Positions 5,641 to 60,718 of a stretch of 64,000 nt of DNA are shown piece by piece. Made by a program: the position numbers and the translations under genes. Below the pieces are notes generated by a model. It ran no database searches. It had not been told where the DNA came from and saw only the letters and a list, made by a program, of their open reading frames with translations. The stretch is taken from assembly GCA_035559535.1 (NCBI GenBank), contig DATMBG010000040.1:106720-170719 (forward strand). Direction: 5' to 3'. The number at the start of each line of letters is the position of its first letter. Position 1 is the stretch's first letter. Origin of the DNA: Candidatus Limnocylindrales bacterium (GTDB lineage Bacteria > Moduliflexota > Moduliflexia > Moduliflexales > JAUQPW01).

Positions 5641-5652
5641 AGTTTATGTCTG

Positions 5653-5722
5653 TTGTCCGTTGCCCGTTATCGGTTATCTATAGGCCGTGTACCTGTTGTA
5701 ACCGACAACGGGCAACGGACAA
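5653..5722. repeat. Heptad-phased inverted repeat between ABC ATPase and binding-protein genes
   Basis: Bases 5653-5675 and 5700-5722 are reverse complements over 23 positions with one mismatch, giving a long hairpin with a 24-base loop. Each arm is built from near-repeats of a seven-base unit (CGTTGCC, CGTTATC, GGTTATC; on the other arm AACGGGC, AACGGAC). It fills the space between two cotranscribed genes, so it could act on mRNA stability or termination. Confidence 0.75.
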
Positions 5723-5724
5723 TT

Positions 5725-6819
5725 TCACCTGATGGCTATTCCGGTCTCCTTATCAAAGAGATGGGACCTGGTTTTATTCAAGGTCAGATAGACCGTATCT
5801 CCGACCCGCAAAGGAAATTCCGGTGTTGTATAAAGTACAAAGGGGGTTGAATGGACCAGGACTTCTACAATATTCTCTTTGCCGACAGGTTCTATCACAT
5901 TCACAACGGCAGGAAGGAACTCATTGCCAGATCCTTTTTCCCTGAAAAGGCTTATATCTTCTGGTCGTATTCCAAAAATGACCTCCTCGGTCTTTTTCCT
6001 TTTCAGAAGGGCCTCTTTTTGGGACTCTGTAAGGGTTATTTTCAGATTCTCCCCCTCAAAAAAGAGATGAGGATGGATTTCTCTGATCTTTCCAGGGATC
6101 ATATTCATGGAAGGACTTCCGATAAAACCTGCTACAAAGAGATTAACAGGTCGATTATAAATCTCAAAGGGGGTATCATACTGAAGTAACTCTCCTTCAT
6201 TAAGGACTGCGATTTTATTTCCCATGGTCATGGCTTCCTGCTGATCGTGGCTCACGTAAATAAAAGTAGTTTTGATCTCCTGATGCAGCTTTTTAATCTC
6301 CAACCTCATGTTGGCTCTGAGTTTCGCATCGATATTACTTAAAGGCTCGTCTAAAAGGAAAACCCCAGGATTTCGGATCAAAGCTCTACCGAGGGCTACA
6401 CGCTGGCGTTGACCTCCTGAGAGTTCCCGGGATTTTCGGTGGAGCAGGTCCCCAATACCTAACATGGTGGCTATTTTTTTGACCCTTTCGGCAATTTCAC
6501 CTGGGGGAACTTTTCTGAGCTTAAGGCTAAATCCGATATTTTCCGCTACCGTCATGTTAGGATACAGGGCATAACTTTGAAACACCATGGCCACATTTCG
6601 TTTGTTGGGAGGGACCCAGTCCACCGGTTTATCATCAAAGTAAACATGCCCCGAAGTCTGCTGTTCCAGACCCGCTATGATTTCCAGAGTCGTGGATTTT
6701 CCACAACCGGAAGGACCTAACAAGATCACAAAATCGTGGTCCTCAATTTCAAGGTTGAGATCTTTAACGGCCACAACCTCTCCAAAACGTTTATGAATGT
6801 TTTCTAACCGGACTTTAAT
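5725..6819 (-). CDS. Sugar ABC transporter ATP-binding protein, MalK/UgpC type
   Basis: Cytoplasmic ATPase of the importer. Walker A GPSGCGKST, signature LSGGQRQRVALGRAL, Walker B VFLLDEPLSNID and switch His in VSHDQQEA are all present, followed by a C-terminal TOBE-type regulatory region; all catalytic residues look intact. The start is odd. The first in-frame ATG/GTG/TTG is GTG at 6774, which cuts off the conserved first beta strand. Upstream in frame lies KVRLENIHKRFGEV, exactly the expected family N-terminus, and the only candidate start before a TAG is ATT at 6817-6819, ten bases after AGGAGG. I place the start there (364 residues). A one-base indel that detached a GTG at 6828 is the alternative. 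First gene of the cluster. Confidence 0.9.
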   Translation of the reverse strand: MKVRLENIHKRFGEVVAVKDLNLEIEDHDFVILLGPSGCGKSTTLEIIAGLEQQTSGHVYFDDKPVDWVPPNKRNVAMVFQSYALYPNMTVAENIGFSLKLRKVPPGEIAERVKKIATMLGIGDLLHRKSRELSGGQRQRVALGRALIRNPGVFLLDEPLSNIDAKLRANMRLEIKKLHQEIKTTFIYVSHDQQEAMTMGNKIAVLNEGELLQYDTPFEIYNRPVNLFVAGFIGSPSMNMIPGKIREIHPHLFFEGENLKITLTESQKEALLKRKKTEEVIFGIRPEDISLFREKGSGNEFLPAVVNVIEPVGKENIVEVLVHSTPFVLYTTPEFPLRVGDTVYLTLNKTRSHLFDKETGIAIR

Positions 6820-6918
6820 GGGTGATTCACCTCCTATGTTAGGCTAAAGGGTCGTAAAAAATTAAAATCAAAAATTAAATATGAAGTCAAGGATTAAAAG
6901 TGAATTCTGAAAAAATAC

Positions 6919-6947
6919 TTGACAGGATTCGGTTTCCTGGATACATG
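6919..6947 (+). promoter_or_regulatory. Candidate promoter for the SDR-M20-Gfo/Idh genes
   Basis: TTGACA at 6919-6924, a 17-base spacer, and TACATG at 6942-6947. The -35 is perfect; the -10 is weak. It lies in the divergent gap between the ABC ATPase and the SDR gene. Confidence 0.4.
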
Positions 6948-6970
6948 ACAGATAAGTTTTCCTAAAAAAT

Positions 6971-7055
6971 CAAAACAGGAAACAAGAAATAAAAAGCGAG
7001 CAGGAGGCGATAACCTCTTGTTTCTTATCCCTTGCTTTTTGCTTCTTGTTTTACC
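6971..7055. repeat. Heptad-phased inverted repeat upstream of SDR gene
   Basis: The left arm (6971-7004) reads as seven-base units resembling GAAACAA and GAAATAA; the right arm (7016-7052) reads as CTTGTTT, CTTATCC, CTTGCTT, TTTGCTT, CTTGTTT. The arms are roughly complementary. The right arm ends three bases before the SDR ATG, so the messenger leader would be folded and lacks a normal ribosome site. Confidence 0.65.
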
Positions 7056-7814
7056 ATGAAGCGGCTGGAGAATAAAAAAGCCATTATCACCGGAAGTGCC
7101 AGAGGGATTGGGAAAGCCATTGCCCGGAAGTTTTTACAAGAGGGGGCCCATGTTTTTCTGGTGGATATTCAACAGGAAAGGCTCCTGAAAACCAGGGATG
7201 AACTGGCTTCTCTGGGTGGAGAAGTACAGGTCTATACCGCCGATGTTTCGCAAAAAGCTCAGGTTCAGAGTCTTGTAGAAACCGTTCTAAAAACATGGGG
7301 GGAGGTAGACATTCTGGTCAACAATGCAGGAATCGCCATTGTAGAGAATTTCCTGGACCTCAAAGAAGAAAATTGGGATCGCACCTTAGACGTGAATCTT
7401 AAAAGCATGTTTTTAGTCTCCCAACTTGTTGCCAGGGACATGGTCAAAAAAGGTCGAGGGGGAGCCATTGTGAACATGGCCTCCACCAATGGACTCCTGG
7501 GTGAGGCTGGACTGGCCCATTATAATGCTTCCAAGGCAGGAGTTATTCTCCTGACCAAAACCTTAGCGATTGAGTTAGCTCCTTATAACATTCGGGTCAA
7601 CTGTGTATGTCCAGGATTTATAAAAACAGAACTGGCGGCGGAAGCCGGATTTAACGACACTTTTATCGCGGAATATGTAAAAAAGATTCCCTTAAACCGA
7701 CATGGAAAACCCGAAGAAGTTGCCAATGTTTTTGCATTTCTGGCCTCGGATGAGGCTTCTTTTATTACAGGAGCTTCCATAGTCATCGACGGGGGACAGA
7801 TTATTAAGGAATAA
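7056..7814 (+). CDS. SDR-family NAD(P)-dependent dehydrogenase/reductase
   Basis: Classical short-chain dehydrogenase of 252 residues, cytoplasmic, interconverting an alcohol and a carbonyl. It shows the cofactor motif TGSARGIG near the N-terminus, NNAG, the catalytic Ser in NMAST, the YNASK catalytic Tyr/Lys pair and the PGFIKTE region, so all tetrad residues are present. The C-terminus ends in the usual GASIVIDGGQ. I start it at ATG 7056 (MKRLENKKAIITG), the natural N-terminus; a TTG at 7032 lies within a repeat. No ribosome site is apparent. It is the first of three plus-strand catabolic genes divergent from the ABC importer, which suggests oxidation of the imported compound or a derivative; the substrate is not readable. 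Confidence 0.92.
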   Translation: MKRLENKKAIITGSARGIGKAIARKFLQEGAHVFLVDIQQERLLKTRDELASLGGEVQVYTADVSQKAQVQSLVETVLKTWGEVDILVNNAGIAIVENFLDLKEENWDRTLDVNLKSMFLVSQLVARDMVKKGRGGAIVNMASTNGLLGEAGLAHYNASKAGVILLTKTLAIELAPYNIRVNCVCPGFIKTELAAEAGFNDTFIAEYVKKIPLNRHGKPEEVANVFAFLASDEASFITGASIVIDGGQIIKE

Positions 7815-7817
7815 AAA

Positions 7818-7880
7818 AGCCAGGAGCCGGGAGTCCGGAGTCAGAGGAAATTTTGGCTTCTGGCTTTGGGTTTTTCTTTA
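7818..7880 (+). repeat. Terminator-like heptad hairpin between SDR and M20 genes
   Basis: AGCCAGGAGCC (7818-7828) pairs with GGCTTCTGGCT (7855-7865) apart from one G-T position, and is followed by a T-rich tract to 7880. The intervening sequence has seven-base units (CCGGGAG, TCCGGAG). It resembles an intrinsic terminator yet ends three bases before the M20 start, so it may attenuate rather than end the operon. Confidence 0.5.
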
Positions 7881-7882
7881 TA

Positions 7883-9208
7883 ATGGAGGAAATTGCTAAA
7901 AAAATAGATCGTTGGGTTGACACCCATGCCGACGAGATAATCGACCTGGCCAGTCGGCTGGTTCAAATCCCTTCAGAGAATAAGCCACCCGTTGGCTTTG
8001 AGCTGGCCTGCCAGAACTACTTGAGAAAAGTATTGGAAGACGCAGGGGCCCATGTGGATTATTTCTTTCCGGAAGAGGTCCCCGGCTTTAAAGAGAGTCC
8101 TCTTTACCTGCAAGGGCGTACTTACAAGGACCGCCCCAATGTTGTGGGAACATTTCCGGGAACCGGAGGGGGAAAGTCCCTCCTGTTAATAGGACATATC
8201 GATACGGTACCTATGGAACCCATGCCCTGGATCGAATCCTCTCCTTTTAGTGGTGAAGTAAAAAATGGTAAACTCTACGGTCGTGGGTCCTATGATATGA
8301 AAGGGGGCATGGTGAGTATGTTCTATGGCATTAAGTGCCTTCGAGATTTAGGGATTTCATTGAGGGGAGATGTCCTGGTGGAAAGCGATGTAGATGAAGA
8401 GTATGGCGGCTCTAACGGGACCCTGGCTTCCCGAATCCGGGGATATACCGCCGATGCAGCTATCGTTCCAGAACCAACCAATATGGTGGTCTATCCGGTC
8501 CACAAAGGTGGCAAATGGTGGAAAATTAATCTGAAGGGAACCCCGGGTAGATCCTTTAGTCAGGAAGAAATCGTAAATCCTATCCATCAAATGGCCGAAA
8601 TCATCCAAATCCTTCGGGATTTCGAGAAGGAGAGAAATACCCGACCAGGTCCTGATATTCACCCGCTTTATCAGGATAATCCGAACCTGCTGGTGCATAT
8701 TTGGCAGGTAGGATGTGAAGGGGCTACTTATAGCCCGGCCCCGGGGATAGATGAAAAGGAACATTTAAACGTCCTGACCGGAGCTCCCAGTGGTTGTTAC
8801 CTCCATGTCTTTGTAGAAACCCATGAAGGAACTTCTGAAGAGGATCTGGAGAAAGAGTTTACAGGTTATATCCTGAACAGGATTGAGAAAAATCCCCTCT
8901 TTAAACATTCTAAACCTGAGTTTGAAAAGAAAATTCGATACCTGGAAGGAAGCCATATCCCCATGGATCACCCTTTGCTAAAATCCATGGAAAAAGCTTA
9001 TCACTCTTTATCCTCGCGTCCTTTTACCGTCCAGGGGGCTCCCTACCAATGTGATGTATACCTGCTCAATCGTTATTATCGCGTGCCCACTGCCATTCTG
9101 GGACCTGGAGGGGCCAATGCCCATGCCCCGGATGAATACGTGCTTATCCAGGACTTGATTGATCTCACGAAGATTTTTGCCAGAATTATAGTGGATTGGT
9201 GTTCTTGA
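7883..9208 (+). CDS. M20-family metallopeptidase / amidohydrolase (ArgE/DapE/ACY1 superfamily)
   Basis: Zinc-dependent hydrolase of amide bonds (441 residues), cytoplasmic. Metal-site motifs are intact: GHIDTVP (His and Asp), GRGSYDMKGG (bridging Asp), the DEEYGG Glu pair (catalytic base and ligand), PEPTN, and the late His in NAHAPDE. The middle portion (HKGGKWWKINLKGT) is the lid/dimerisation domain, here with a longer insertion (VHIWQVGCEGATYSPAPG) than in ArgE. The start chosen is ATG 7883; an in-frame TTG at 7853 preceded by AGAGGA would add ten hydrophobic residues. It sits between the SDR and Gfo/Idh genes, consistent with removing an acyl or aminoacyl group from the imported substrate. 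Exact substrate unknown. Confidence 0.9.
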   Translation: MEEIAKKIDRWVDTHADEIIDLASRLVQIPSENKPPVGFELACQNYLRKVLEDAGAHVDYFFPEEVPGFKESPLYLQGRTYKDRPNVVGTFPGTGGGKSLLLIGHIDTVPMEPMPWIESSPFSGEVKNGKLYGRGSYDMKGGMVSMFYGIKCLRDLGISLRGDVLVESDVDEEYGGSNGTLASRIRGYTADAAIVPEPTNMVVYPVHKGGKWWKINLKGTPGRSFSQEEIVNPIHQMAEIIQILRDFEKERNTRPGPDIHPLYQDNPNLLVHIWQVGCEGATYSPAPGIDEKEHLNVLTGAPSGCYLHVFVETHEGTSEEDLEKEFTGYILNRIEKNPLFKHSKPEFEKKIRYLEGSHIPMDHPLLKSMEKAYHSLSSRPFTVQGAPYQCDVYLLNRYYRVPTAILGPGGANAHAPDEYVLIQDLIDLTKIFARIIVDWCS

Positions 9209-9232
9209 AGCCGTTCACCGTTTTTGGTTAGC

Positions 9233-9258
9233 AATGAATAATTGGCTAATTGTTCATT
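9233..9258. repeat. Short inverted repeat in M20 / Gfo-Idh spacer
   Basis: AATGAATAATT at 9233-9243 and AATTGTTCATT at 9248-9258 are reverse complements with one mismatch and a four-base loop. Units such as GTTCATT and GCTAATT give the same seven-base rhythm seen in other spacers. The downstream gene has a separate strong ribosome site. Confidence 0.5.
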
Positions 9259-9281
9259 GTTAAGGGAGGAAGGAGGGAGTT

Positions 9282-10331
9282 ATGGCCAGGAAGTACAGAG
9301 TCGCCGTGCACGGAGCCGGTTGGGTCTCCGGAGAACATATCAAAGCTTTTCAGAGTAATCCCCACGCTGAAGTCGTTGCTGTAAGCAGTCGAAAAGAATC
9401 CAGTGCCAGAGCTAAGGCTCTGGAAGCCGGATTAAAAGACGCAGAGATCTACACCAATTATGAAAAACTGGTAGCCAACAAAGATATCGACATTGTTTCT
9501 ATCTGTACCCCCAACGATCTACATGCCCAGGAGACCATCCTGGCGGCTGAAGCCGGTAAACACATCGTGATCGAAAAACCGGTTGCTCTGAATCTGGAAG
9601 ATCTGAAAAAGATGCGGGATGCTGTAAGAAAAGCGAAGGTCAAAACCGTGGTCAGTTTTGTCCTTCGCTGGAATCCTTTATTTGAAACCATTAAAGCTTT
9701 GCTGGCCGATAATGCAGTGGGAGATGTTTTCTATGTGGAGACGGATTATCAACACAATGTGGGTCCCTGGTATGCGGGTTATGAATGGGTTACCAAATTT
9801 GCCCGTGCGGGTGGGACGTTTCTTGCCGCCGGATGCCATGCCATGGATGCCTTACGATGGTTTGCCGCAAAAGGTCAGTACGAAACCATGGATATTGCGG
9901 AAGTTACCGCCTATGAAGGAGGGTATCGTCAGAAAGTCGATTTAGACTATCCTGGCTTTAGTTTGGCCATTGTCAAATTCAAAAACGGGGCTTTGGGAAA
10001 GGTGACTTCTAATTTTGATTGCATCATGCCTTACAATTTCCCCATCGAAATCCATGGTGACAAAGGAACCATCAAAGATAACCGGGTCTATTCCCACAAA
10101 TTTCCAGGACAAAAAGGATGGGTCACCATCCCCACGATCCTTCCCGATAGCGGTGATGTAACCCACCATCCCTTTAAAGGCCAGATTAATCACTTTATTG
10201 AATGCATTATGCAGGATAAAGAATCCCACTGTAACCTGGAAGATGTGGTCAATACCCATGAAGCCTGCATTGCTACCATGATCTCGGCCAGGGAGAAACG
10301 AACGGTAAAATTGCCATTGATAGAGGATTAA
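9282..10331 (+). CDS. Gfo/Idh/MocA-family NAD(P)-dependent oxidoreductase
   Basis: Cytoplasmic dehydrogenase (349 residues) of the glucose-fructose oxidoreductase/inositol dehydrogenase family. The N-terminal Rossmann half begins RVAVHGAGWVSGEH, and the EKPVALN motif supplies the conserved active-site Lys. The C-terminal beta-sheet half contains GGTFLAAGCHAMDALRWF, where the D/H pair normally polarises the sugar hydroxyl. Translation starts at ATG 9282 after GGGAGGAAGGAGGGAG, an excellent ribosome site. Members oxidise or epimerise sugars, inositols or sugar-nucleotides. With the SDR and M20 genes and the divergent sugar importer this suggests catabolism of a modified sugar or cyclitol; that is inference. 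Confidence 0.92.
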   Translation: MARKYRVAVHGAGWVSGEHIKAFQSNPHAEVVAVSSRKESSARAKALEAGLKDAEIYTNYEKLVANKDIDIVSICTPNDLHAQETILAAEAGKHIVIEKPVALNLEDLKKMRDAVRKAKVKTVVSFVLRWNPLFETIKALLADNAVGDVFYVETDYQHNVGPWYAGYEWVTKFARAGGTFLAAGCHAMDALRWFAAKGQYETMDIAEVTAYEGGYRQKVDLDYPGFSLAIVKFKNGALGKVTSNFDCIMPYNFPIEIHGDKGTIKDNRVYSHKFPGQKGWVTIPTILPDSGDVTHHPFKGQINHFIECIMQDKESHCNLEDVVNTHEACIATMISAREKRTVKLPLIED

Positions 10332-10620
10332 AGAGATTGCCCTCTGGGGAGGGGTGACCCTGCGGAGTCCTCACGTAGGCCGCCTCCTCCTTTTCTCCTT
10401 ACTCCCGGCCCCCATACGCACCAGGATAAGAGTGAGATCCCTGAGAGGGTCCCCTTAATGTCAAACGAGACGTTTAACCTACTAACCTTTCCCCGCTTTG
10501 CAGGGGAAGGAACTTTGAAGTGAAGTCCCCTCTTCCCCCACCCCTTCCCTCCCCGTATGGGAGGAGGGGCTGGAGAGGGGTCGGGGGTGAGGGTCACTTA
10601 AACATTAAGCAAAATTAAAG
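10332..10620. repeat. Dispersed intergenic repeat cluster, copy 1
   Basis: This 423-base gap (to 10754) holds no credible gene. It contains a copy of the dispersed core CATACGCACCAGGATAAG (10413-10430), a copy of the palindrome TCAAACGAGACGTTTAA (10461-10477) followed by CCTACTAA, and G/C-rich stretches of the CCCTTCCC/GGGAGGGG type that translate to spurious TLTPDPSP-like peptides. Related sequence recurs at 17620-18040 and 57420-57790. Confidence 0.65.
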
Positions 10621-10754
10621 TAACAAAGCAGTAATAACTAAGGGTCAAAAATTGACTTGAAAAATTCCAGATCGTTGGTTATCCTTCCCTTATTGCCGTA
10701 GAGCTTATTCATCCCGGGGAATATATTTTTTGAAATCAGGAGAAATCCAGGGGT

Positions 10755-11015
10755 ATGGAACAATCCATTCTGGGAAAAGTACAGGTACTGCCTTTCGACA
10801 AGCAGCGGGAAGTTTTAGACTCTGTTAAATTCCTTCGGCAAAGGGCCACCGGGAAACGACCAGGACGAAGTATAAGGGAGATGCAGGGGAATTCTGTCCT
10901 CCGTATTCCCGCATTCCCCTGTCTCCGCGTCTCCATATCCCCCTGTCCTCGCGTCCCGGGAGTGGCGGGAAAGAAGTGGGGCAAATTTTTGTTCGATGGG
11001 GTAGTTCGGTGGTGA
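10755..11015 (+). pseudogene. DUF2281-like antitoxin remnant with tail replaced by repeat sequence
   Basis: The first ~38 residues (MEQSILGKVQVLPFDKQR, then EVLDSVKFLRQR) match the pattern of DUF2281 proteins, small antitoxin-like proteins usually of 70-80 residues that pair with PIN or similar toxins. After about residue 40 (KRPGRSIREM) the frame runs into seven-base-periodic intergenic sequence, giving a nonsense tail of PCLRVSISPCPRV type. No toxin gene follows. The tail region (10869-10965) also forms a hairpin. I read this as an antitoxin gene truncated by repeat DNA. The reading frame is intact, so a short protein could still be made. Confidence 0.5.
10869..10965. repeat. Heptad-phased sequence terminating the DUF2281 remnant
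   Basis: Seven-base units (TCCTCCG, TATTCCC, GCATTCC, CCTGTCT, CCGCGTC) run through this stretch. CAGGGGAAT at 10884-10892 is the exact reverse complement of ATTCCCCTG at 10913-10921. Confidence 0.6.
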
Positions 11016-11104
11016 CTCCTTCTCACTGCTCAATTTTTCCCTTAGAGCACCGCGTGAAGTAAAAATTTCAGGCGGTTGTCTACTGGAAAAGGAGGTTAAC
11101 CCTT

Positions 11105-12376
11105 ATGGAAAGATTATCAATAAATCGGCGAATTTTTCTAAAGACCGGAATAGCCTTACTTGCAAGTGGGGCCACCACGGTTATGTGGAGTAAAAGTGGT
11201 AATGCAGGATCTTTGAAAGAGAATGTAGATGGGTTACTGCGAAGTGCTGCCGACGCAGGTGATATTCCAGGTGTGGTGGCCATGGCTACTAACCGGGACG
11301 GCACGATTTATGAAGGTGCCTTCGGCCAGCGCATACTGGGTCAAAACATCGCGATGACCACCGATACCGTGGTTTGGATTGCTTCCATGACCAAGGCCCT
11401 TACCACTGCTGCAGCCATGCAGTTAGTCGAACAGGGAAAGCTTGAGCTGGATAGTCCTGCGAGCCGCTGGGTACCGGATCTTGCTAACGTTGAAGTGTTG
11501 GAAGGTTGGGATGCCAGTGGCCAGCCACGCACCCGTGCCCCTAAACGGCCCATTACCCTACGCCACCTGCTCACGCACACGGCGGGGTTTTCCTACGAGT
11601 TCTGGAATGCCGATATCCAGCGTTACCAGCAAGTTAAAAATATTCCCGGAATCGGAACCTGCCAGAACGCCGCCTTACGCACACCCCTCGTGGCCGATCC
11701 GGGTGAACGCTGGGAATACGGTATCGGAATCGACTGGGCGGGAAAGATGATTGAGGCGGTAAGTGGGAAACGATTGGGGGTTTATCTGCAAGAAAACCTC
11801 TTCAATCCCCTCGGCATGAAGAATACGGCGTTTAAAATCACACCGGAGATGCGGGAACGCCTGGCCAGGGTTCATCAACGTGGTAGTGACGGTAAACTTA
11901 CCCCTACCGACTTTGCGATGCCGGAGGAGCCTGAATTCGAGATGGGTGGAGGCGGGCTTTACTCCACGGCCGGAGACTACCTCCTGTTCATACGTATGAT
12001 CCTTAATCGGGGTAAAGGAAACGGTAATCAGGTGCTCAAGCCGGAGACCGTAGATCTGATGTCACGAAACGCCATAGGAGATCTCAAGGTCCGGATGCTT
12101 AAAACCGTGATGCCGGATCTGTCCAACGATGCGGAGTTCTTCCCCGGTATGCCGAAGAGTTGGGGTCTTGGCTTCATGATCAATGAACAGACTGCACCCA
12201 CAGGTCGCTCGGCAGGCAGTCTGGCTTGGGCGGGCCTGGCAAATACCTATTTCTGGATTGATCCTTATAAAGGTCTAGGTGGGGTGTATTTAACCCAGAT
12301 TTTCCCCTTTGCAGACACGAAATCACTACCGTTGTTCTATGCCTTCGAAAAGGCAGTGTATCAATCCCAGGCCTAA
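11105..12376 (+). CDS. Tat-exported serine hydrolase, beta-lactamase class C / family VIII esterase type
   Basis: Exported hydrolase of 423 residues. An N-terminal twin-arginine signal, NRRIFLKTG at about residues 7-15, is followed by a hydrophobic stretch. The nucleophile motif is S94-M-T-K97 (SxxK). HLLTHTAGF at about 154-162 and the Tyr at about 205 (EYGIGID) are typical of the serine beta-lactamase-like/EstB family, and the catalytic Ser, Lys and Tyr are all present. Such enzymes are usually esterases or D-amino-acid peptidases rather than resistance enzymes. A GGAGG ribosome site lies just before the start. It stands alone between repeat-rich spacers. Confidence 0.88.
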   Translation: MERLSINRRIFLKTGIALLASGATTVMWSKSGNAGSLKENVDGLLRSAADAGDIPGVVAMATNRDGTIYEGAFGQRILGQNIAMTTDTVVWIASMTKALTTAAAMQLVEQGKLELDSPASRWVPDLANVEVLEGWDASGQPRTRAPKRPITLRHLLTHTAGFSYEFWNADIQRYQQVKNIPGIGTCQNAALRTPLVADPGERWEYGIGIDWAGKMIEAVSGKRLGVYLQENLFNPLGMKNTAFKITPEMRERLARVHQRGSDGKLTPTDFAMPEEPEFEMGGGGLYSTAGDYLLFIRMILNRGKGNGNQVLKPETVDLMSRNAIGDLKVRMLKTVMPDLSNDAEFFPGMPKSWGLGFMINEQTAPTGRSAGSLAWAGLANTYFWIDPYKGLGGVYLTQIFPFADTKSLPLFYAFEKAVYQSQA

Positions 12377-12623
12377 TCGGTGAGAGCAAACGTGTAATTG
12401 AATCTAAAGCTGGAGGTGAAAGAAAAGGGTTCCCTATCTCAGGGTCGGGATCTAGAGGGGGATACACGGATATAAATATCCTACCCTCCCATGACCGCCT
12501 TTGGACAGACCGCCTTACCCCCTCTCCTGAAGTTTCAAGAGAGGAGATAAGGGGGATTGAGGGGGGAACCGGATCGTCCAGGACGTACTTCAATGTAAAA
12601 CCGATATCCGGGCCCTGAAACCT

Positions 12624-12953
12624 TTATTTAGTCGCCTTTTTATATCCTAAAAGGACCGTAATTTTGGAACCTTCTCGAAGGTTTTTGGAAGCATCCGGGA
12701 AATGGAGGGTCAGGGTACCGGCATCGGTATGCACGTCTACCAAATCCTTTTTATCTGCAGAGGTGTAAATTTTTATAATCGTACCCGTCATCTCATGTTC
12801 GCCATCGTATTTTCCAGCCGTACCGGTTGTGGTTTCAGGTTTCTGGCCTGTCTGGGTTGAATAAGGCTGCTCCGATCGAGCAATCTGATTCATTCCCATC
12901 CAAACGGTTGTTACTATTAAAGCCAGAAAGAGGATAAACACTTTCCTCATCAT
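12624..12953 (-). CDS. Small secreted hypothetical protein
   Basis: A 109-residue protein with a Sec signal (KVFILFLALIVTTVWMG) followed by a Ser/Thr/Gln-rich linker and a compact 60-residue beta-rich domain (EMTGTIIKIYTSADKK, then VDVHTDAGTLTLHFP) that resembles small OB-like periplasmic proteins. AAGGAGG sits upstream of tandem ATG codons, so it is very likely translated. I do not recognise the family. The 259-base spacer to its right holds no gene I can support. Confidence 0.7.
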   Translation of the reverse strand: MMRKVFILFLALIVTTVWMGMNQIARSEQPYSTQTGQKPETTTGTAGKYDGEHEMTGTIIKIYTSADKKDLVDVHTDAGTLTLHFPDASKNLREGSKITVLLGYKKATK

Positions 12954-13212
12954 ATCCTAAACCTCCTTTTTAAAGGTCACTCCCTTTGAAGCATTGGCTT
13001 CAGGGGTTACCTTTTTTCTTTTTAAGGTTCTATTACAACCGAGAAGATTTAAGACGAGGAAACTACTTGAGGTACTACTTCCAGGGGAAACTACCTTGTG
13101 GTAAACCAGGTGCGGGATTGGGAACTGCTCAAAATAACCCTTGTCCTGAAATAACATTAAAGAAAAAGATTCTTTTTAGCAAGAAAAATTTTTTATCCCC
13201 TTCCTTTGAATC

Positions 13213-17535: not shown

Positions 17536-18045
17536 AGGGCTTCAAATTCCAGATTTCAGATCAGCTTAAAATGAACCGCTTACCTTTCATCTTGACGACT
17601 AGCAAGTAGTAAGTAGCAAACAGTCCCCATCCTCCTCCCCTTTCTGGGGGTAGAGTTTTGGGAACTGACTCTTCCGACTCCCATACGCGCCAGGATAAGA
17701 AAGTTAGCCCTGATAGGGCAACCTGGGGATAGCCCCTGACTTACGCCAGGGGAAACAACATCCTATCTATCAAATGGGGACGTTTGACCTATTAAGCCCA
17801 GGCGGAACGACCTGTTTCACAGGCTGCTGCTACGGAGCTTGAAAAATTCTAAATTATTGAATCCCCCGACTTGTGTCGAGGGCTACCGACTGTTCGTTCC
17901 GGAGGGGCTTTTCAGCTTAACCTGGCGCCTATGCTTCCGACTTCCCTTCCCTGCGAGGGAAGAGGAGAGTTGGGACCCCGGCAATCCCCGAGTACCCCTT
18001 CCCGACGTGGGAAGGGGAAGGTCAGGGAGTTAAGTTAGAAAAAAC
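17536..18045. repeat. Dispersed intergenic repeat cluster, copy 2
   Basis: A 510-base gap without a credible gene. Heptad units CTAGCAA, GTAGTAA and GTAGCAA run at 17599-17619. The dispersed core with CCAGGATAAGAAAGTTAGCC lies at 17682-17720. A variant of the palindrome family, TCAAATGGGGACGTTTGA then CCTATTAA, is at 17770-17795. The rest is G/C-rich hairpin sequence (for example CCCTTCC...GGAAGGG near 17990-18025). Confidence 0.65.
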
Positions 18046-24458: not shown

Positions 24459-24533
24459 TGGGGCGTCGTCAAGCGGTAAGACACAGGATTTTGGTTCCTG
24501 CATTCGGAGGTTCGAATCCTCCCGCCCCAGCCA
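24459..24533 (+). tRNA. tRNA-Gln (anticodon TTG)
   Basis: A 75-base cloverleaf. Acceptor stem TGGGGCG pairs with CGCCCCA, followed by G and an encoded CCA at 24531-24533. The anticodon stem CAGGA/TCCTG encloses the loop TTTTGGT with anticodon TTG at 24491-24493. The T arm GGAGG-TTCGAAT-CCTCC is perfect. The D arm contains AAGCGGTAAG. No intron. It reads CAA codons (and CAG by wobble). Confidence 0.97.
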
Positions 24534-50752: not shown

Positions 50753-50791
50753 TTCTTACAATTAACTTATCCTGTGTTATAGGTCCCAACT

Positions 50792-50860: not shown

Positions 50861-50878
50861 AACTGAGAGCCAAAAAGA

Positions 50879-52030: not shown

Positions 52031-52104
52031 AGGTTGATCTGTTGTAAGGTCGTGAGGGGAAAAGGAGTAGAGCCGTGGAATGATGAAATCAGGGAGTGGT
52101 ATAG

Positions 52105-53418
<1,314 letters not shown>

Positions 53419-53420
53419 GA

Positions 53421-53510
53421 GGGACGCGGGGTTATGGGACACGGGGACTGGAAGACGCGGGGAAATGTCTCCCAGTCCCCGTGTCGCCGCGTCTCATAAC
53501 TCCGCGTCCC
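53421..53510. repeat. Long heptad-phased inverted repeat between convergent ahcY and HEAT genes
   Basis: Arm 1 (53421-53451) and arm 2 (53472-53510) are reverse complements over about 31 positions with two mismatches and one seven-base insertion in arm 2, itself a diagnostic single-unit difference. Units include GACGCGG, GGTTATG, GGACACG. Position between two convergent genes suits a two-way terminator, although T-tracts are missing. Confidence 0.7.
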
Positions 53511-53538
53511 AAAACCCCCAGGTCCCCCGGATTGCCGG

Positions 53539-55230: not shown

Positions 55231-55461
55231 AAGATCAACTCCAGAGGTTAGAAGTAAAAATAACTCATTATGTGGGTTATACAGCTAAACCCCCCTTTAC
55301 GGCCTGGTTTGATTATTCGTTGGCACGGTTGCTTGTAATTACCCTACTTTAAAATATTTGTCAACTAAATAAATGAAGATATCCCTGAATATTTACTAAG
55401 AAAGACGCCGACCTTCAGGTTCTTAACCGTTTACCATCCGGAGTTCCTGATCGATCCCATT

Positions 55462-55821
55462 TTATAAGTCTTCCGCATCACTTTCCCTGGGATCTGGAGT
55501 TAACTCCCCGGATTCAACGGCCTCCTCAACCATCTGATCAAAATCATCTCCCACCTCTTCGCCCATTTCTTTCCCCATCTTCTTCATCCAACGGGCAATG
55601 CTTGCAGGATCATTTTCATCTAATCCACTTAAACGACTCGGATCGGCCAGGGCCTCCAATCGGGCTTCTTCGGATCTGAGGGTAGCAAACCTGGAGAAAA
55701 GACGTCTGAGGTCTTCGCTTCCACATTTTTGGCACTCCAGTTTACCTGGATTGTGGATATTTCGAATGAAAAACGTACTTTTTCTTCCACATGAATTACA
55801 GCGATATTCGTAAATAGGCAT
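55462..55821 (-). CDS. FmdB-family zinc-ribbon protein
   Basis: 119 residues. The N-terminus MPIYEYRCNSCGRKSTFFI with a second CQKCGS pair forms the zinc ribbon of the FmdB/putative regulatory family (C-x2-C ... C-x2-C). The C-terminal ~70 residues are acidic and helical (DPASIARWMKKMGKEMGEEV). The family name comes from a proposed regulator of formamidase, but function is generally unknown. Confidence 0.88.
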   Translation of the reverse strand: MPIYEYRCNSCGRKSTFFIRNIHNPGKLECQKCGSEDLRRLFSRFATLRSEEARLEALADPSRLSGLDENDPASIARWMKKMGKEMGEEVGDDFDQMVEEAVESGELTPDPRESDAEDL

Positions 55822-55830
55822 ATCTGCAGT

Positions 55831-55922
55831 AAAACGTAAGGTGTAATACGTAAGTACCCGGCGGATAAAACCCGCAAAACTCTGCCGAAAACTTACTTCT
55901 AACGTATTACATTTTACGTTTT
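55831..55922. repeat. Heptad-phased inverted repeat upstream of the FmdB-like gene
   Basis: Left arm units AAAACGT, AAGGTGT, AATACGT; right arm units CTTACTT, CTAACGT, ATTACAT, TTTACGT. The arms are imperfect reverse complements around a GC-rich middle. It is the clearest example of the seven-base rhythm. It lies in the leader of the FmdB-like gene, ending ten bases before its start codon. Confidence 0.75.
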
Positions 55923-56074
55923 AAATTTCTCGTTAAGGAGGTAATCGGATACTCCTTCGATAGGTTAGTAGGTTAAAAGGACTCTGTCAATAAAATTATC
56001 GGTTCCGGGGAATACAGGCAGGACACCCGCCGGATCTGGTGAGTTAATTTATTAGAATAAGGTTTTAATTTTAT

Positions 56075-56103
56075 TTGACACCGTTAAGAAAAGAAGGTAT
56101 TCA
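56075..56103 (+). promoter_or_regulatory. Promoter of the RraA-like gene
   Basis: TTGACA at 56075-56080, 17-base spacer, TATTCA at 56098-56103, then a leader of about 50 bases ending in AAAAGGAG five bases before the ATG. Confidence 0.6.
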
Positions 56104-56157
56104 GGTAAAACCACCCTCACCATCAGATTATAACCTTGCAATGGAAAAGGAGTTTTT

Positions 56158-56838
56158 ATGAAGGCTTTTTTAACCCCATCTGAATTAGAGGCTCTGAAAA
56201 AATTTGATAGTCCGACAATTTCCAATGCCATTGAAACCTTTAACATAAGACCACGAACCGAAGGATACCTGGGCCCCGAAATTCAATGCAGGTTCCCCAA
56301 ACTTGGGGTCATGGTCGGTTATGCTCTGACCGTTACCTTTGATACCCGACAACCGGGGGAAACCCGAAGCTGGGACATGCTCTTTAAGGTTTTTGAAGCG
56401 GTGCAGGCTGCCCCAAAACCGGTTGTAGCCGTGTTCAAAGACCTCTCAAAAAAACGTGGTTGGGCCGCTTACTGGGGAGAGATCATGACGACCATCATGA
56501 AAAAATTAGGTACTGTAGGGGTTGTAACCGATGGAGCCGTACGAGACTTGGAGCAGGTAGAGAAAATCGGCTTTCATTTCTTCTCCTCCACTGTCGTGGT
56601 TTCCCATGGGGATTTAAAAATTGTGGATATAAACATCCCGGTAGAAATTACGGGCGTTACCATCAAACCGGGTGACCTTCTCCATGGAGATATGAACGGC
56701 GTTGTGATGATCCCCGAAGAAATCGCAAAGGAGGTGATCACCGCATCCCAGAAAATTATAGATCGGGAGTCTCAGATTTTACATGTGATTAAGCGGGAAG
56801 GTTTTGATCCTTCTCAGTTGAGGGAGTTTTATCACTGA
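56158..56838 (+). CDS. RraA-like / HMG-CHA aldolase family protein
   Basis: 226 residues. It has the RraA fold motifs: SPTISNAIETF at the start, GYALTVTF, WGEIMTTIMKKLGTVGVVTD, the GAVRDLEQ segment with the substrate Arg and metal Asp, and PGDLLHGDMNGVVMIPEE near the end. Family members are Mg-dependent 4-hydroxy-4-methyl-2-oxoglutarate aldolases/oxaloacetate decarboxylases; the RNase E-inhibitor role applies only to some proteobacterial members. It has its own promoter and a strong AAAAGGAG ribosome site. No pathway partners are adjacent. Confidence 0.88.
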   Translation: MKAFLTPSELEALKKFDSPTISNAIETFNIRPRTEGYLGPEIQCRFPKLGVMVGYALTVTFDTRQPGETRSWDMLFKVFEAVQAAPKPVVAVFKDLSKKRGWAAYWGEIMTTIMKKLGTVGVVTDGAVRDLEQVEKIGFHFFSSTVVVSHGDLKIVDINIPVEITGVTIKPGDLLHGDMNGVVMIPEEIAKEVITASQKIIDRESQILHVIKREGFDPSQLREFYH

Positions 56839-57156
56839 GGCTTCTCTGACTTGAACCCTTGAGGCGAGACGCTTCCTTCGATTTGCCCGGAACTTACTTT
56901 GAGCCTGTCGACGGGAGAGGGTTTCGCCCAGGGTAGGTCTGTGATTTGTTCTGCTCCCACAAGTTCTGACTCTGAAGCCCGACCCAAATTTTAACCTTAT
57001 CCCCCTGCCACCCACACCTCAGGGATCTTCCCCGGAAATCATCTCCGGTTTCCTACCCTCCGGTTAATCAAAAAGACCTTTTATGGAATTAATGGCACTC
57101 CCTTTGCTCTTTTAATAACTAAAAGGCTTAAGATTCCTGTTATTTCAGAACTTTAA

Positions 57157-57318
57157 ACCTTATGGGGCAAGTATCTTTCAACTCCCCTGGGGCATAGCCT
57201 GGCTACCTTACTCGGGTCTGATCCTAAGAGTCGAATGGATGAAGATCTTGTTCGGATGAAACCTTTCCTCGAAACCGGAAAACGACCCCATGATGCTGCT
57301 GCTTATAATCGCTCGTAA
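57157..57318 (+). pseudogene. C-terminal fossil of an SRPBCC (cyclase/dehydrase-like) protein
   Basis: A 53-codon open stretch after TAA at 57154, with no start codon, reads WGKYLSTPLGHSLATLLG, then MDEDLVRMKPFLETGKRPHD and a stop at 57316. The ending ...(D/E)DL-x-RMK-x-(F/V)LETG... is typical of the extreme C-terminus of SRPBCC/polyketide-cyclase-like membrane proteins. The same frame upstream of the TAA (57001-57153) is open but unrecognisable. I read this as a gene remnant within an 1100-base gap. Confidence 0.4.
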
Positions 57319-57419
57319 TCTCTTTTTTCGTCCCTTGGATAAGGAGGAATAAGAAAATTTGGCCAAAACTCAATCGGTTACAGTCATTACAACGTTTACT
57401 TAAATCTGAATAGCCACCG

Positions 57420-57790
57420 TGATTTCACCCCCTCATGCCTGCCCCTCCCCTTCCTCCCTTCAGAGGTGGGTTTTCTCTAAACCTAACCCCCTTCTCGCAT
57501 CGAGGAGGGGGGAAGGTGGGGATGGCCTGGGTCCTTACTTTCCCCTTCCCTCCCAGGAAAGGGGAGTCGGAGGAATCAGGTTTAAAAAACCTGCCCTTAA
57601 AACCTTTCCCCTTCTGAAGCTTCAGGAGAGGGAGAGCGAGGCAGACACGCCAGGATGAGAAAGTTAGCCCCAGGTGGCCCCGCCGGTGCTAGCCTTTTTA
57701 TCTCCTGGCACGTATGGAGAGCGAAGGGGGTGAGGTAGACGGTTGTACTCCCAGCTAAGCCTGCCCGGTGCTACGGAGACCGGAATTGGC
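57420..57790. repeat. Dispersed intergenic repeat cluster, copy 3
   Basis: G/C-rich hairpin-forming sequence with the dispersed core ACGCCAGGATGAGAAAGTTA at about 57646-57665, and GGTGCTACGGAGACC at about 57768, which is shared in part with GCTGCTACGGAGC at 17825. Open frames across it (PSQERG-like peptides) are artefacts. Confidence 0.6.
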
Positions 57791-57822
57791 TTTACAAAGT
57801 ATAAAAGGATTTAAAATTCCCC

Positions 57823-57872
57823 TTGACAGGAAACCAGGTCAGGTATTTCTTAATACTTAGGAATCCTAAGTA
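57823..57872 (+). promoter_or_regulatory. P460 promoter region with 19-base palindrome (candidate MarR operator)
   Basis: TTGACA at 57823-57828; the -10 is unclear. TACTTAGGA-A-TCCTAAGTA at 57854-57872 is a perfect palindrome around one base, 68 bases before the P460 start. Size and symmetry suit a MarR dimer, and a MarR gene lies downstream. Confidence 0.65.
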
Positions 57873-57939
57873 ATTAACAATTTATCTGCCAGGATGAGAG
57901 ATACCATCAGATAATCTATAAGTCGAGGAGGTTAAAACC

Positions 57940-58440
57940 ATGAAAAAATCGATTATATTCTTAGGAATAGGGGGTTTCCTCATAAGTCTTTCTTTAGGGG
58001 TCATTGCGTTATCAGGTGAAAGCAATCAGCAGAAAGTTAATTATCCCAAGGATTACCGAAATTGGACCCATGTGAAATCCATGGTGATTCAGCAGGGTCA
58101 TCCGCTTTTTGAAGCTTTTGGTGGAATCCATCATATCTATGCCAATGAGAAAGCCCTGGAGGCCATGACATCGGGCAAATCCTATCCCGATGGAGCGATT
58201 TTAGTTTTTGATCTCCTAGAAGCCAAAGTTGAAAATAATGCTATTGTGGAAGGCCCCCGGAAAGTTCTCGGTGTGATGGAAAAGAACACCAAAAGCTTTA
58301 CCGAAACCGGTGGGTGGGGTTTTGAGACATTCAAAGATGATACCCAAGAGCGGGTGGTTAAGGATCCAAAGGGGGATTGTTTTTCCTGCCATGCTTCCCA
58401 GACAAAAACAGATTTTGTATTTAGCAGTTACCGAAAGTAA
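57940..58440 (+). CDS. Cytochrome P460 family haem protein
   Basis: 166 residues. A Sec signal (MKKSIIFLGIGGFLISLSLG, then VIAL) sends it to the periplasm. The mature part has the P460 fold pattern (GHPLFEAFGGIHHIYAN, YPDGAILVFDLLEA, GWGFETFKDD) and a single c-type haem site C147-F-S-C150-H151. Nitrosomonas P460 oxidises hydroxylamine or NO-related species through a Lys-haem crosslink; related proteins include cytochrome c'-beta, which only binds NO. Which activity applies here is unknown. The ribosome site CGAGGAGG is strong. A MarR-type regulator follows, and a palindrome precedes the gene, suggesting a regulated response to NO or oxidative stress. Confidence 0.87.
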   Translation: MKKSIIFLGIGGFLISLSLGVIALSGESNQQKVNYPKDYRNWTHVKSMVIQQGHPLFEAFGGIHHIYANEKALEAMTSGKSYPDGAILVFDLLEAKVENNAIVEGPRKVLGVMEKNTKSFTETGGWGFETFKDDTQERVVKDPKGDCFSCHASQTKTDFVFSSYRK

Positions 58441-58455
58441 GGTTTCTTAGATTTG

Positions 58456-58477
58456 GAAGGGAGCCCAGGCTCCCTTC
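58456..58477. terminator. Hairpin between P460 and marR-like genes
   Basis: GAAGGGAG (58456-58463) and CTCCCTTC (58470-58477) form a perfect eight-pair stem, extendable by CC/GG. No T-tract follows, so it may be a processing or partial termination signal. Confidence 0.45.
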
Positions 58478-58528
58478 GAAGCCGGTTTGCTTAGTGATCC
58501 CCTTTCCACCGGTTCAGGGGCTCTGGTT

Positions 58529-59173
58529 ATGGAATCCGTATTTAACCTATCTACACAGCATCGAGAAACAGACAGTAAAATTGTTGCTGCACTGGAACGG
58601 CTCTCTCAGGCCTTTCGTATTTTGCTTTGGGAGCAGGCAAAAGAACATGACCTGAGTCCTATTCAGATCCAGTTCCTTGTTTATTTACTTTATCATCAGC
58701 AGGAAAGGGTTTTCCTGTGCCGGGTCAGTCAACTTGCCAGGGAATTTGACCTGACCCAGGCTACGGTAAGTGATGCGGTTAAATCACTGGAAGAGAAAAA
58801 TCTTGTTTATCGAGAACCCTACCCCGGCGATAAGCGTATTTTTACCTTGCGGTTGACTCCCCAGGGCAAACAATTAGCCCTAAAGCTTTCCACCTGGGCC
58901 AATGTAATCAAGGAGAATGTAGCCCAGTTTTGCCCTAAGGAACAGGAAATCGTCCTTAAATTCCTGATGCAGTTGATTGCATCCCTGCAAAGGGCGGGGA
59001 TTATTACCATCTCCAGGATGTGTATAACTTGTAGATTTTTTCAACCAGACGCCCATCCTGGTACCGATTCCCCCCACCATTGCAGGCTCATCGACAAACC
59101 CCTGGCCAACTCAGAGCTAAGAATCGACTGCCCGGAACATGAACCGCTTATAGGGGCTAAAGGCCAGAAATGA
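58529..59173 (+). CDS. MarR-family regulator with C-terminal four-cysteine module
   Basis: 214 residues from ATG 58529; a TTG at 58487 would add 14 residues. Residues ~15-155 are a MarR winged helix (LSPIQIQFLVYLLYH, LAREFDLTQATVSDAVKSLE, wing PYPGDKRIFTLRLTPQGK). The C-terminal ~50 residues are an addition with C165-x2-C168, C185 and C201 plus H183/H184 (MCITCRFFQ, HHCRLIDK, RIDCPEHE), spacing that fits zinc or, more interestingly, an iron-sulfur cluster. It follows the P460 gene and probably binds the palindrome at 57854. A redox or NO sensor controlling P460 is a reasonable inference. The 184-base spacer after it shows no gene. Confidence 0.88.
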   Translation: MESVFNLSTQHRETDSKIVAALERLSQAFRILLWEQAKEHDLSPIQIQFLVYLLYHQQERVFLCRVSQLAREFDLTQATVSDAVKSLEEKNLVYREPYPGDKRIFTLRLTPQGKQLALKLSTWANVIKENVAQFCPKEQEIVLKFLMQLIASLQRAGIITISRMCITCRFFQPDAHPGTDSPHHCRLIDKPLANSELRIDCPEHEPLIGAKGQK

Positions 59174-59357
59174 CCGGGGAGGTAAAAATTTACTCATCTG
59201 CCTGGGATAAAGGTACAGACGACCTCAAAAAGCCAATACAGGGACTCCTGAAACTGAAATCCACGGGGGGGATGGCCCCCTCTCACAGGTAAAAGATTTT
59301 CCCGGTCAGTTAATCAGGTGGAAGAGGGTCATGGTAAACTATCCTCTTCCCTTAAAA

Positions 59358-60641
59358 TTATTCCACAGGAGAGAGTCTGTCAAAATTCCCTTTTTTCCGA
59401 CCTACTTTTGCACAAGGAGTTCCTTCTACTTCCACCACATCCGCCGTCACATCAATTTTGTTTTTAAAGAGGCTGGAACCCACTGCATAGGCATCTACAG
59501 GGACAGCCAGTTTTTCGAAGAGTTCGATTTTATTCAGGTCAAATCCACCGGAGACTACAATCTTAAGTTCGTTTAAGCCGTTTTGATCGAATACCTGCCT
59601 GGCAGTATGGACCAGTTCCGGGCAAACTCCCAGGCTGGATTCATCTCGCGGTACGACCGATTTATCACGTAAGTAACCGGAAGTATCAAATCGAACTCCC
59701 CAGATCTTATTCTTTCCTTCTCCAATCACCTTATGCCATTGGCTCGGATTACCCGGGTCAATACCACCTCCATGGTACTCTTTATAGAAGGCCTTAACCA
59801 CTTCCAGGGTAGTACCAATGCAATCGTTATCCCAGTCGACCAGGATAATACGATTGACAGAAGGATCGATCTGACGGTCGAAGGCCAGTGCAGCGGCACT
59901 GGTTGATCCATGGTAAGCACCGATGAGGGCATGGGGTATGGTTCCCAAACCCTTGGTACCCCAATAATTTGCATTGGCATCGGTACTTACACCAAAAGCT
60001 CCGGCTTTCATAGCGGCATACCCGTCGGTAGCCTGGACCCAGAAATGATCGAATCGGGCCGGGAAGAAGAGAATCGGTTTGCCTCGAGCCGCTTTAACCA
60101 CTTTATAAGTAGCAGTGGCTGTAGCCGTAGGTCTTGCAATAACACCTAACAAGACGGTCTCCAGATAGGCAAAGTATTGTTGCGGCCCCTGGATAACCAG
60201 AAAAGGTTCCCAAGGCTCGACCATATCTCCATCGTAGAGAGCGCGGACTTTGATTTGATCCCAACAGTTAACCCACAACCGATTGAGCTCTTGACGAATT
60301 CTCGTTCGAGAAGCCGTTAATCTGAGAATCTCATCCTCATTCCCTTCTACAACGACCCGATGAAGTTGTTGCTCAACAGCTCGAAGTTTTTCGTACAAGT
60401 CCGCGGCCTTTTCCAGGTCGGTATAGTAACCGGTGCAATATTTCAGGATCGCAATGGCCTCATCGAGTCCAACCACCACAGCGTGCTCCCGAACAAAGAA
60501 TTGATAGGTCACCGAAGGATTATACTTCTCCTTACGAAGAATCTCCGTAACACGTAGAAAATACTTGTCAGAATAATAACCCTCTCGGATTTTATCGATA
60601 GGAACTTTAAAAACAGTGGGATCTAATCGTTGTTTGGACAT
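59358..60641 (-). CDS. Nicotinate phosphoribosyltransferase
   Basis: 427 residues; NAD-salvage enzyme that joins nicotinate and PRPP, coupled to ATP hydrolysis, in the cytoplasm. Characteristic parts are YTDKY-like EGYYSDKYFLR at the N-terminus, EPFLVIQGP, VSTDANANYWGTKGLGTIPH and GAYHG, then VRFDTSGYLRDKS and VVSGGFDLNKIELF (phosphate loop). The catalytic-loop His after GTIPH is present. It is in the clade with the short archaeal-like core rather than E. coli PncB. It lies 77 bases downstream of nrtR on the same strand, exactly the pairing expected for NAD homeostasis. Confidence 0.92.
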   Translation of the reverse strand: MSKQRLDPTVFKVPIDKIREGYYSDKYFLRVTEILRKEKYNPSVTYQFFVREHAVVVGLDEAIAILKYCTGYYTDLEKAADLYEKLRAVEQQLHRVVVEGNEDEILRLTASRTRIRQELNRLWVNCWDQIKVRALYDGDMVEPWEPFLVIQGPQQYFAYLETVLLGVIARPTATATATYKVVKAARGKPILFFPARFDHFWVQATDGYAAMKAGAFGVSTDANANYWGTKGLGTIPHALIGAYHGSTSAAALAFDRQIDPSVNRIILVDWDNDCIGTTLEVVKAFYKEYHGGGIDPGNPSQWHKVIGEGKNKIWGVRFDTSGYLRDKSVVPRDESSLGVCPELVHTARQVFDQNGLNELKIVVSGGFDLNKIELFEKLAVPVDAYAVGSSLFKNKIDVTADVVEVEGTPCAKVGRKKGNFDRLSPVE

Positions 60642-60644
60642 GGT

Positions 60645-60718
60645 CTTTAATTGTTAATTGTTCGTTATGGGTTGTTTTGGGGTTAGATGACAACGGACAA
60701 CGAACAACGGACAAATGT
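60645..60718. repeat. Heptad-phased spacer between nrtR and nicotinate phosphoribosyltransferase
   Basis: Units GTTAATT, GTTCGTT on the left and ACAACGG, ACAACGA, ACAACGG on the right give two opposed heptad arms that pair partly. The right arm nearly repeats sequence of the 5700-5722 arm. Confidence 0.65.

Follow-up and report, generated by a model that had tools for sequence, protein, structure and literature searches.

Heptamer and octamer arrays paired as hairpins of fixed arm order in bacterial intergenic spacers

The window is a 64,000-nucleotide (nt) stretch (G000:C40:106720-170719) of a bacterial genome of 5.6 Mb in 58 contigs (G000), and several of its intergenic spacers carry degenerate tandem arrays of seven- or eight-nucleotide words, often as the two opposed arms of a hairpin. 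Spacers were defined from our own gene calls, made with a hexamer model and without use of annotation. The initial annotation had read nine of these spacers in steps of seven bases, many with reverse-complement arms nearby, and each was compared with 500 dinucleotide shuffles for array signal and with 40 shuffles for hairpin score. The heptameric reading holds for seven of the nine (weakly for 9220-9262), and a hairpin scoring above all 40 shuffles is likewise present at seven; arm pairs at the listed loci are 13–43 nt long and 74–96% complementary. A TTGTCCG-type heptamer hairpin at 5653-5722 (arms 5653-5676 and 5699-5722, 24 nt, 96% complementary) scores 23.0 against a shuffle maximum of 10.0 and occupies nearly the whole of spacer 5641-5724, which is flanked by two minus-strand open reading frames (ORFs); its period-7 signal (5651-5723) is reached by none of the 500 shuffles. 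In the sister species (G001, aligning to G000 at 89–95% identity) one contig ends and another begins inside the loop of this hairpin (window 5681-5690).

The divergent spacer around 6971-7052 (period 7, p 0.002) holds an AAACAAG/CTTGTTT hairpin at 6980-7051 (arms 6980-7000 and 7031-7051, 86% complementary), with a counterpart at the same place in G001 where the array score is higher. At 7815-7880 (none of 500) lies a CAGGAGY-type heptamer hairpin, 7816-7867 (arms 7816-7828 and 7855-7867, 92% complementary), in a spacer of 68 nt in both species, and the weak array at 9220-9262 (p 0.036 for period 7, 0.05 for period 8) belongs to a hairpin of AACAATG/TTGTTCA type at 9228-9263 (arms 9228-9243 and 9248-9263, 88% complementary) in a spacer of 73 nt in both. 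An AAAACGT-type heptamer hairpin spans 55830-55923 (arms 55830-55854 and 55899-55923, 88% complementary; period 7 at 55831-55922, p 0.002), and two related words meet within a single hairpin at 60651-60714 (period 7 at 60645-60718, none of 500), one arm (60651-60675) being built of TTGTTAA/TTGTTCG units and the other (60690-60714) of CGGACAA units, with 76% complementarity. The two loci for which seven is the wrong step are octamer arrays of CCCCGCGT/GACGCGGG type: 10869-10965 (p 0.51 for period 7, none of 500 for period 8), where the array of CCCCGCGT type occupies 10901-10956, and 53421-53510 (p 0.43 and 0.004, respectively), a hairpin of GACGCGGG type with arms at 53421-53463 and 53468-53510 that are 74% complementary. 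No hairpin beyond the shuffles is found at 10869-10965 (score 10.5, shuffle maximum 12.5) or at 17599-17626 (4.0, maximum 6.5), the latter (period 7, p 0.008) containing a short TAGCAAG heptamer array at 17600-17619 in a spacer that also carries sequence missing from G001. That spacer, 17536-18045, measures 510 nt in G000 and 226 nt in G001, and part of it (about 17640-17960) looks like an insertion or deletion; it has a CAGGATAAG stretch in common with spacer 10332-11104, whose dispersed repeat at 10482-10532 matches dozens of places in G001. The sole Rfam match of the window at gathering thresholds is a tRNA gene at 24459-24530.

Beyond the window, sampling was carried to 864 kb (599 spacers) at first and finally to 1.264 Mb of the 5.6 Mb (869 spacers). 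The excess of lag-7 autocorrelation expected from the initial annotation is indeed present, with z scores of 17.9 at lag 7, 20.3 at lag 8 and 18.3 at lag 14 in the 599 spacers, and none of the three stands out in coding sequence. Period-7 arrays occur in 91 of the 869 spacers and period-8 arrays in 68, whereas shuffles give 3.4 and 3.2 and coding segments of matched lengths give one of each; the remaining periods between 4 and 12 are represented by 6–16 spacers each (shuffles 2.0–4.2). The heptamer and octamer arrays of these spacers are thus real, and period 8 constitutes a class separate from the heptamers that the initial annotation had not set apart. When each spacer is classed by its best array (87 heptamer, 67 octamer, 715 others), a hairpin score of at least 14 is attained in 71% of the heptamer class and 72% of the octamer class, versus 18% of the other 715. 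This contrast, together with the arm order of 74 to 2 described below, makes it very improbable that these are ordinary slippage arrays whose arms are inverted by coincidence or by inverted duplication in random order, even though, among long repeats, heptameric simple sequence repeats (SSRs) are the most frequent in many bacteria (Mrazek 2007, via the parts of PMC4679880 and PMC4692102 covered).

The heptamer words include TTGTCCG, CAGRAGT, AAAACGT, AAAAGGC, AACAATG and AAGAAGC, among others, and the octamer words GGRAGTRT and GACRCGGG. Identical words are shared by 41 pairs among 79 heptamer spacers (5.4 expected) and by 97 pairs among 64 octamer spacers (5.3 expected). As words recur beyond chance across the genome, units private to each locus, as first proposed, are ruled out, although the part of that claim that concerns local likeness stands, in that the two arms at a locus resemble each other more than they do arms of the same loose word family elsewhere. 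The contrast drawn with the short tandemly repeated repetitive (STRR) sequences of cyanobacteria, whose units alone were said to be shared genome-wide, was accordingly overstated.

The two arms of these hairpins stand in a nearly fixed order. We denote by W the recurring word found in the first arm (TTGTCCG and GGGAGTAT are among the W words) and by W′ its reverse complement. Among the 76 assignable hairpins of G000 (100 in total, 24 unassigned) 74 are W-first and 2 W-second, and in G001 the corresponding figures are 57 and 2 among 59 (82 in total, 23 unassigned); the two counts are not independent, as many of the loci are orthologous. Although the family words were picked after inspection of the data, a random order would split each family evenly whatever its label. 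In all four exceptions the assigned word is AACAATG/TTGTTCA, which is AT-rich, and TTGTCCG-like units, which elsewhere form the first arm, are present in most of them as well; the first arms of 182 hairpins from the two species comprise 96 words, and both orders are seen for one word pair only. When arm clusters are scored for partners on both sides alike, so that one hairpin may enter twice, the partner lies only 3′ of W in 93 of 126 clusters in G000 (only 5′ in 2, on both sides in 1, absent in 30) and in 85 of 116 in G001 (only 5′ in 1, absent in 30). Convergent spacers are W-first in 14 of 14 cases in G000 and 7 of 7 in G001, so that the order there is not explained by selection against ribosome-binding sites close to a start codon. 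W arm clusters no more than 40 nt from the end of an ORF, most of them parts of hairpins, point away from the ORF in 90 cases and toward it in 12 in G000 (82 and 7 in G001). A rule of base composition was rejected, the first arm having more G than C in just 37 of 58 heptamer hairpins of G000. The fixed order argues against random inverted duplication and toward either a directional process at the DNA level or common descent.

The sister species separates the two classes. Of the 869 G000 spacers 163 could be paired with G001, among them 21 heptamer spacers, a few of which are long, AT-rich and marginal in their arrays, and 12 octamer spacers. The heptamer spacers are of equal length within 4 nt in 12 of the 21 pairs, and their arms differ at 46 of 534 sites (8.6%; 38 transitions and 8 transversions) versus 1643 of 15163 sites (10.8%) in array-free spacers, a count that omits pairs with a length ratio outside 0.75–1.33, poor alignment or less than 70% identity; neither the difference in divergence (p 0.12) nor the transition bias (p 0.07) is significant. 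Most of the compared heptamer hairpins stand in the same spacers in G001 and, with ordinary divergence there, look inherited and now decaying rather than freshly grown; the active, error-prone growth suggested for heptamers by the initial annotation is therefore not borne out. In contrast, the octamer hairpins differ between the species at most of the loci compared, in length or in content (2 of 12 spacer pairs agree in length to within 4 nt), and represent the changing class. The octamer hairpin at C40:56410-56614 of G000 is missing in G001, where about a dozen bases replace it before the start codon and no target-site duplication is visible at the empty site, and the reverse case is found at C51:246700-246805, where the octamer hairpin is present in G001 and absent from G000 in a poorly alignable spacer. 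At C58:183308-183507 the loop of the octamer hairpin is kept in both species, the arms differ strongly and G001 has 16-nt higher-order repeats. A period-7 or period-8 signal lies within 120 nt of 7 of 52 G001 contig ends versus 2.7% of random windows, some of these ends being of low complexity; hairpins may break assemblies and hence be under-counted.

Whether the arms are copies of each other was approached through arm exchange. The median score of own arms versus arms borrowed from other loci is 16.25 versus 8.75 for CAGRAGT, 19.0 versus 10.75 for AAAACGT and 17.0 versus 7.5 for AAAAGGC, and arm-to-arm complementarity (80–84%) exceeds unit-to-unit identity (62–68%). That own arms beat borrowed arms points to local copying between arms, and on these sequence comparisons one arm was more probably copied from the other within the locus when the hairpin arose. 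A unit-permutation test was set aside, since the choice of extents biases it; the observed value exceeded the permuted mean in 124 of 130 cases and reached p ≤ 0.05 in 22 only. Exchange between orthologues, from which long spacers and weak hairpins were omitted as in the loop and arm-similarity comparisons between species, gives 26.7 for own and 22.3 for exchanged arms in octamers (8 loci, with own arms scoring higher at 5, the same at 1 and lower at 2) and 16.0 and 15.4 in heptamers (11 loci: 6 higher, 4 equal, 1 lower), with p 0.08 in each class. Octamer arms are more similar within than between genomes (0.80 versus 0.59, in 7 of 8 loci), with extents that differ. Of the proposed local templated growth, the locality is supported by the own-arm advantage, whereas homogenisation of arms after the split from G001 is only suggested. 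The loop of a hairpin without a scored array at C58:4683-4807, about 20 nt long, is inverted between G000 and G001.

The order is also encountered in other phyla for one word. An exact scan for three CAGRAGT units, made without a control scan, returned at least 119 stretches, and the record titles among the matches listed include Cyanobacteria, Acidobacteria, Nitrospirae, Bacteroidota, Bacillota and Phycisphaerae, among others; of the CAGRAGT groups among the matches listed, 14 have a partner downstream only, none upstream only and one on both sides. In 49 genomes of other phyla, which were selected for carrying CAGRAGT and overlap with the scanned loci, the word is convergent at 18 distinct places (8 genomes) and divergent at one place (1 genome), overlapping matches and strands having been merged by hand. 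A broad set of 192 genomes has CAGRAGT in 8, two of them of this genus, and the same word read backwards in 1; the octamer word occurs in 2 of the 192, both of this genus. Viral contigs (L271-L350) contain exact three-unit CAGRAGT in 81 stretches versus 30 for the backwards word, which is thus also common there, and a plasmid collection gave zero matches to two queries. A wide vocabulary common to the phyla was rejected: of 200 arrays from other phyla, the 149 that are not CAGRAGT-like include 15 identical to G000 words versus 16.2 for letter-shuffled words, and 118 within one mismatch versus 103 (standard deviation 4.9, maximum 114), a slight excess at most. A general polarity of words across phyla was likewise rejected, the 68 cases comprising 40 as in G000 (many of them the selected CAGRAGT word), 11 opposite, which are AT-rich, 4 ties and 13 unmatched, one of these a run of N. 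Of 127 array groups in other phyla, 51 are remote from any ORF and 24 fall within one; at ORF 3′ ends W points away in 32 cases and toward in 6, and the count at 5′ ends (12 away, 2 toward) is biased, W′ carrying stop codons. A random-flip null for this comparison was ill-conditioned and was set aside.

We tentatively favour, with somewhat less than even confidence, an origin of the inverted 7- and 8-nt arrays and of their fixed arm order in strand-biased slippage followed by fold-back template switching. The nascent strand would slip by 7 or 8 nt and deposit the word W, its 3′ end would then fold back and copy the W array by template switching, and synthesis would resume to leave W-loop-W′; the opposite order would be rare if slippage seldom began on W′. 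The heptamer hairpins of the genus would be old products decaying by point mutation, the octamer hairpins would still be in the course of rebuilding, and a cellular function would be unnecessary. According to the parts of the sources covered, reverse-complement repeats can arise, and stems be repaired, through template switching (PMC8794818), which can also homogenise arms and invert spacers or loops (PMC8604942). Loss of repair genes was considered as a cause and rejected, SbcD and MutS both being present over the cut-offs.

Several points weigh against this origin. The strand polarity of slippage is something we infer, unlike the arrays, the two periods and the arm order; no rule was found by which W can be told from W′; and no clear birth of a heptamer array is seen among the 21 paired spacers, so the mechanism is read from old products alone. 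The own-arm advantage is small in the two tightest families (TTGTCCG, 17.0 versus 15.0; octamer, 28.0 versus 23.75), and in CAGRAGT, AAAACGT and AAAAGGC, as families loosely matched by word, part of the gap may reflect diversity of words between loci. The hairpin finder chooses the best register and extents and so inflates arm-to-arm agreement, which affects the comparison of arms within and between genomes in both classes, and the orthologue exchange that avoids this bias reaches only the p values of 0.08 given above. Of 63 cross-species loop comparisons 52 are direct and 11 are labelled inverted, C58:4683 alone being clear, and at C51:91336 an 8-nt core that appears inverted by eye was scored by the script as a direct loop. 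The single CAGRAGT hairpin of opposite order in the 49 genomes of other phyla also runs counter to it.

A rather unlikely alternative is that the word families are dispersed mobile hairpin elements (REPIN- or MITE-like), each with an order inherited from one ancestral hairpin and with arrays that diverged later. The fixed order would follow directly, as would the recurrence of words at many loci, the limitation of the octamer family to the genus (2 of 192 genomes) and the presence or absence of octamer hairpins at C40:56410-56614 and C51:246700-246805. The loops of 27 octamer hairpins are more alike than shuffled (6.13 versus 4.96, 0 of 60 shuffles), though array units persist in many of them, and in genome G043 the loops of several CAGRAGT hairpins also look similar by eye. 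The loops of TTGTCCG (12), CAGRAGT (8) and AAAACGT (11), on the other hand, are no more alike than shuffled, the observed similarity being reached by 25, 20 and 24 of 60 letter shuffles, and heptamer loops that are unrelated between loci argue against a mobile element and are expected if each hairpin was made in place. The own-arm advantage in three of five families, the lack of a visible target-site duplication at the one empty site and the persistence of the CAGRAGT order in other phyla speak against the element as well. For the octamers a mobile element may still apply.

It is improbable that the hairpins are selected RNA structures such as terminators, attenuators or mRNA stabilisers. Paired degenerate heptamers have a precedent in P6b, a stem of the cyanobacterial tRNA-Leu intron (PMC3488679, in the parts covered), and the spacers concerned are mostly co-directional (70 of 87 heptamer and 48 of 67 octamer spacers, versus 609 of all 869). 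Selection at the RNA level was sought in mismatches, spacer types and compensatory changes, and no signature was detected in these tests, whose power is limited. Sense-strand G·U versus A·C mismatches number 122:108 in heptamer and 126:110 in octamer hairpins, with no significant excess, against 236:166 in ordinary co-directional hairpins, from which they do not differ significantly (p 0.12). Unlike terminators, heptamer hairpins are under-represented in convergent spacers (4 of 87 versus 116 of 869, p 0.008), and of 207 paired positions at 11 heptamer loci 20 lost pairing whereas 2 were altered in both partners and still pair.

Still less probable is a polar extension of ends, by which a preferred heptamer or octamer would be added at both 3′ ends of a break, in a telomerase-like manner or by templated end joining, and the ends joined as W-loop-W′. 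Under such extension the order should be convergent wherever a site is two-sided, and W should point away from the gene beside it, as is the case in G000 (90:12), in G001 (82:7) and at the 3′ ends of other phyla (32 away, 6 toward), and it would account for spacers filled by arrays. Independently made arms should, however, match arms of other loci equally well, which is not so in three of five families. Partners were found for 100 of 126 arm clusters in G000 and 95 of 116 in G001, and the clearly partnerless clusters that bear on the polarity of single arms number only 10 and 8.

To return to slippage with fold-back copying, heptamer repeats have been known in bacteria for decades and their origin is without an accepted explanation; a fixed arm order renders the class testable, since the order can be counted in any genome, and turns the question ‘why seven?’ into one on slippage and fold-back that can be put to the test. 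The octamer class, confined to this genus among the 192 genomes and changed at most loci, provides a changing case beside the older heptamers. That one polar process of DNA growth operates in several phyla, laying 7- or 8-nt words outward from gene ends and then copying them back, is doubtful; if it did, arm order alone would record the direction of synthesis, and the cyanobacterial, Xanthomonas, Beggiatoaceae and present heptamers would be products of one process.

STRR sequences are by definition tandem, and inverted pairing is not known to belong to that definition. By the usual features of STRR sequences and heptameric SSRs, the present arrays agree in having tandem units in spacers (91 of 869) and units shared genome-wide and depart in that the seven-base period does not apply everywhere. 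Filamentous cyanobacteria likewise have several such spacer heptamers per genome (three in Calothrix, via the parts of PMC4692102 covered), and over-representation of heptamers has been related to the seven nt of polymerase contact (Mrazek 2007, via PMC4679880 and PMC4692102). Within the covered parts of the sources cited here, the GGGAATC/GGGGAYT heptamers of Xanthomonas and Nostoc (PMC4692102) are similarly degenerate intergenic arrays that mostly lie between the same genes in sister species, and nearby convergent pairs of the GGGAATC type are reported in 70 cases in Xcc (186 patterns) and 75 in Xac (183 patterns), a convergent order at short distance that is also true here. That paper thus already documents convergent pairing for a G-rich word, and the same orientation with respect to genes; its system consists of a single G-quadruplex-forming word type, whereas the present one has several words, most without G runs, plus octamers, and TTGTCCG, CAGRAGT and AAAACGT, having no runs of three G, would not be predicted to form G-quadruplexes. 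Arm-to-arm copying and loop comparison, carried out here, do not figure in the covered parts of PMC4692102. The TAACTGA repeats of marine Beggiatoaceae, Cyanobacteria and Bacteroidetes (PMC4679880), for which translational regulation was proposed, are likewise intergenic heptamers with one word in distant phyla and arrays that mostly face the same way with respect to the gene downstream; unlike the present arrays they have almost no inverted partners, the main genome containing 169 direct sets and a single indirect repeat. The P6b element (PMC3488679) is likewise made of degenerate heptanucleotide repeats, variable in copy number, whose pairing forms a hairpin, but is a transcribed structure at one intron locus, whereas the arrays described here occupy scattered spacers with no RNA signature detected. 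With the template switches of quasipalindromes (PMC8794818, PMC8604942) our hairpins may have in common an origin of reverse-complement arms at the DNA level, homogenisation and loop inversion; those switches act on short inverted repeats generally, whereas here the arms are 7- and 8-nt arrays in fixed order. The kind of repeat is therefore known, and in the covered portions of the open-access PMC literature we found no report of a fixed arm order extending across several words, or of an octamer class.

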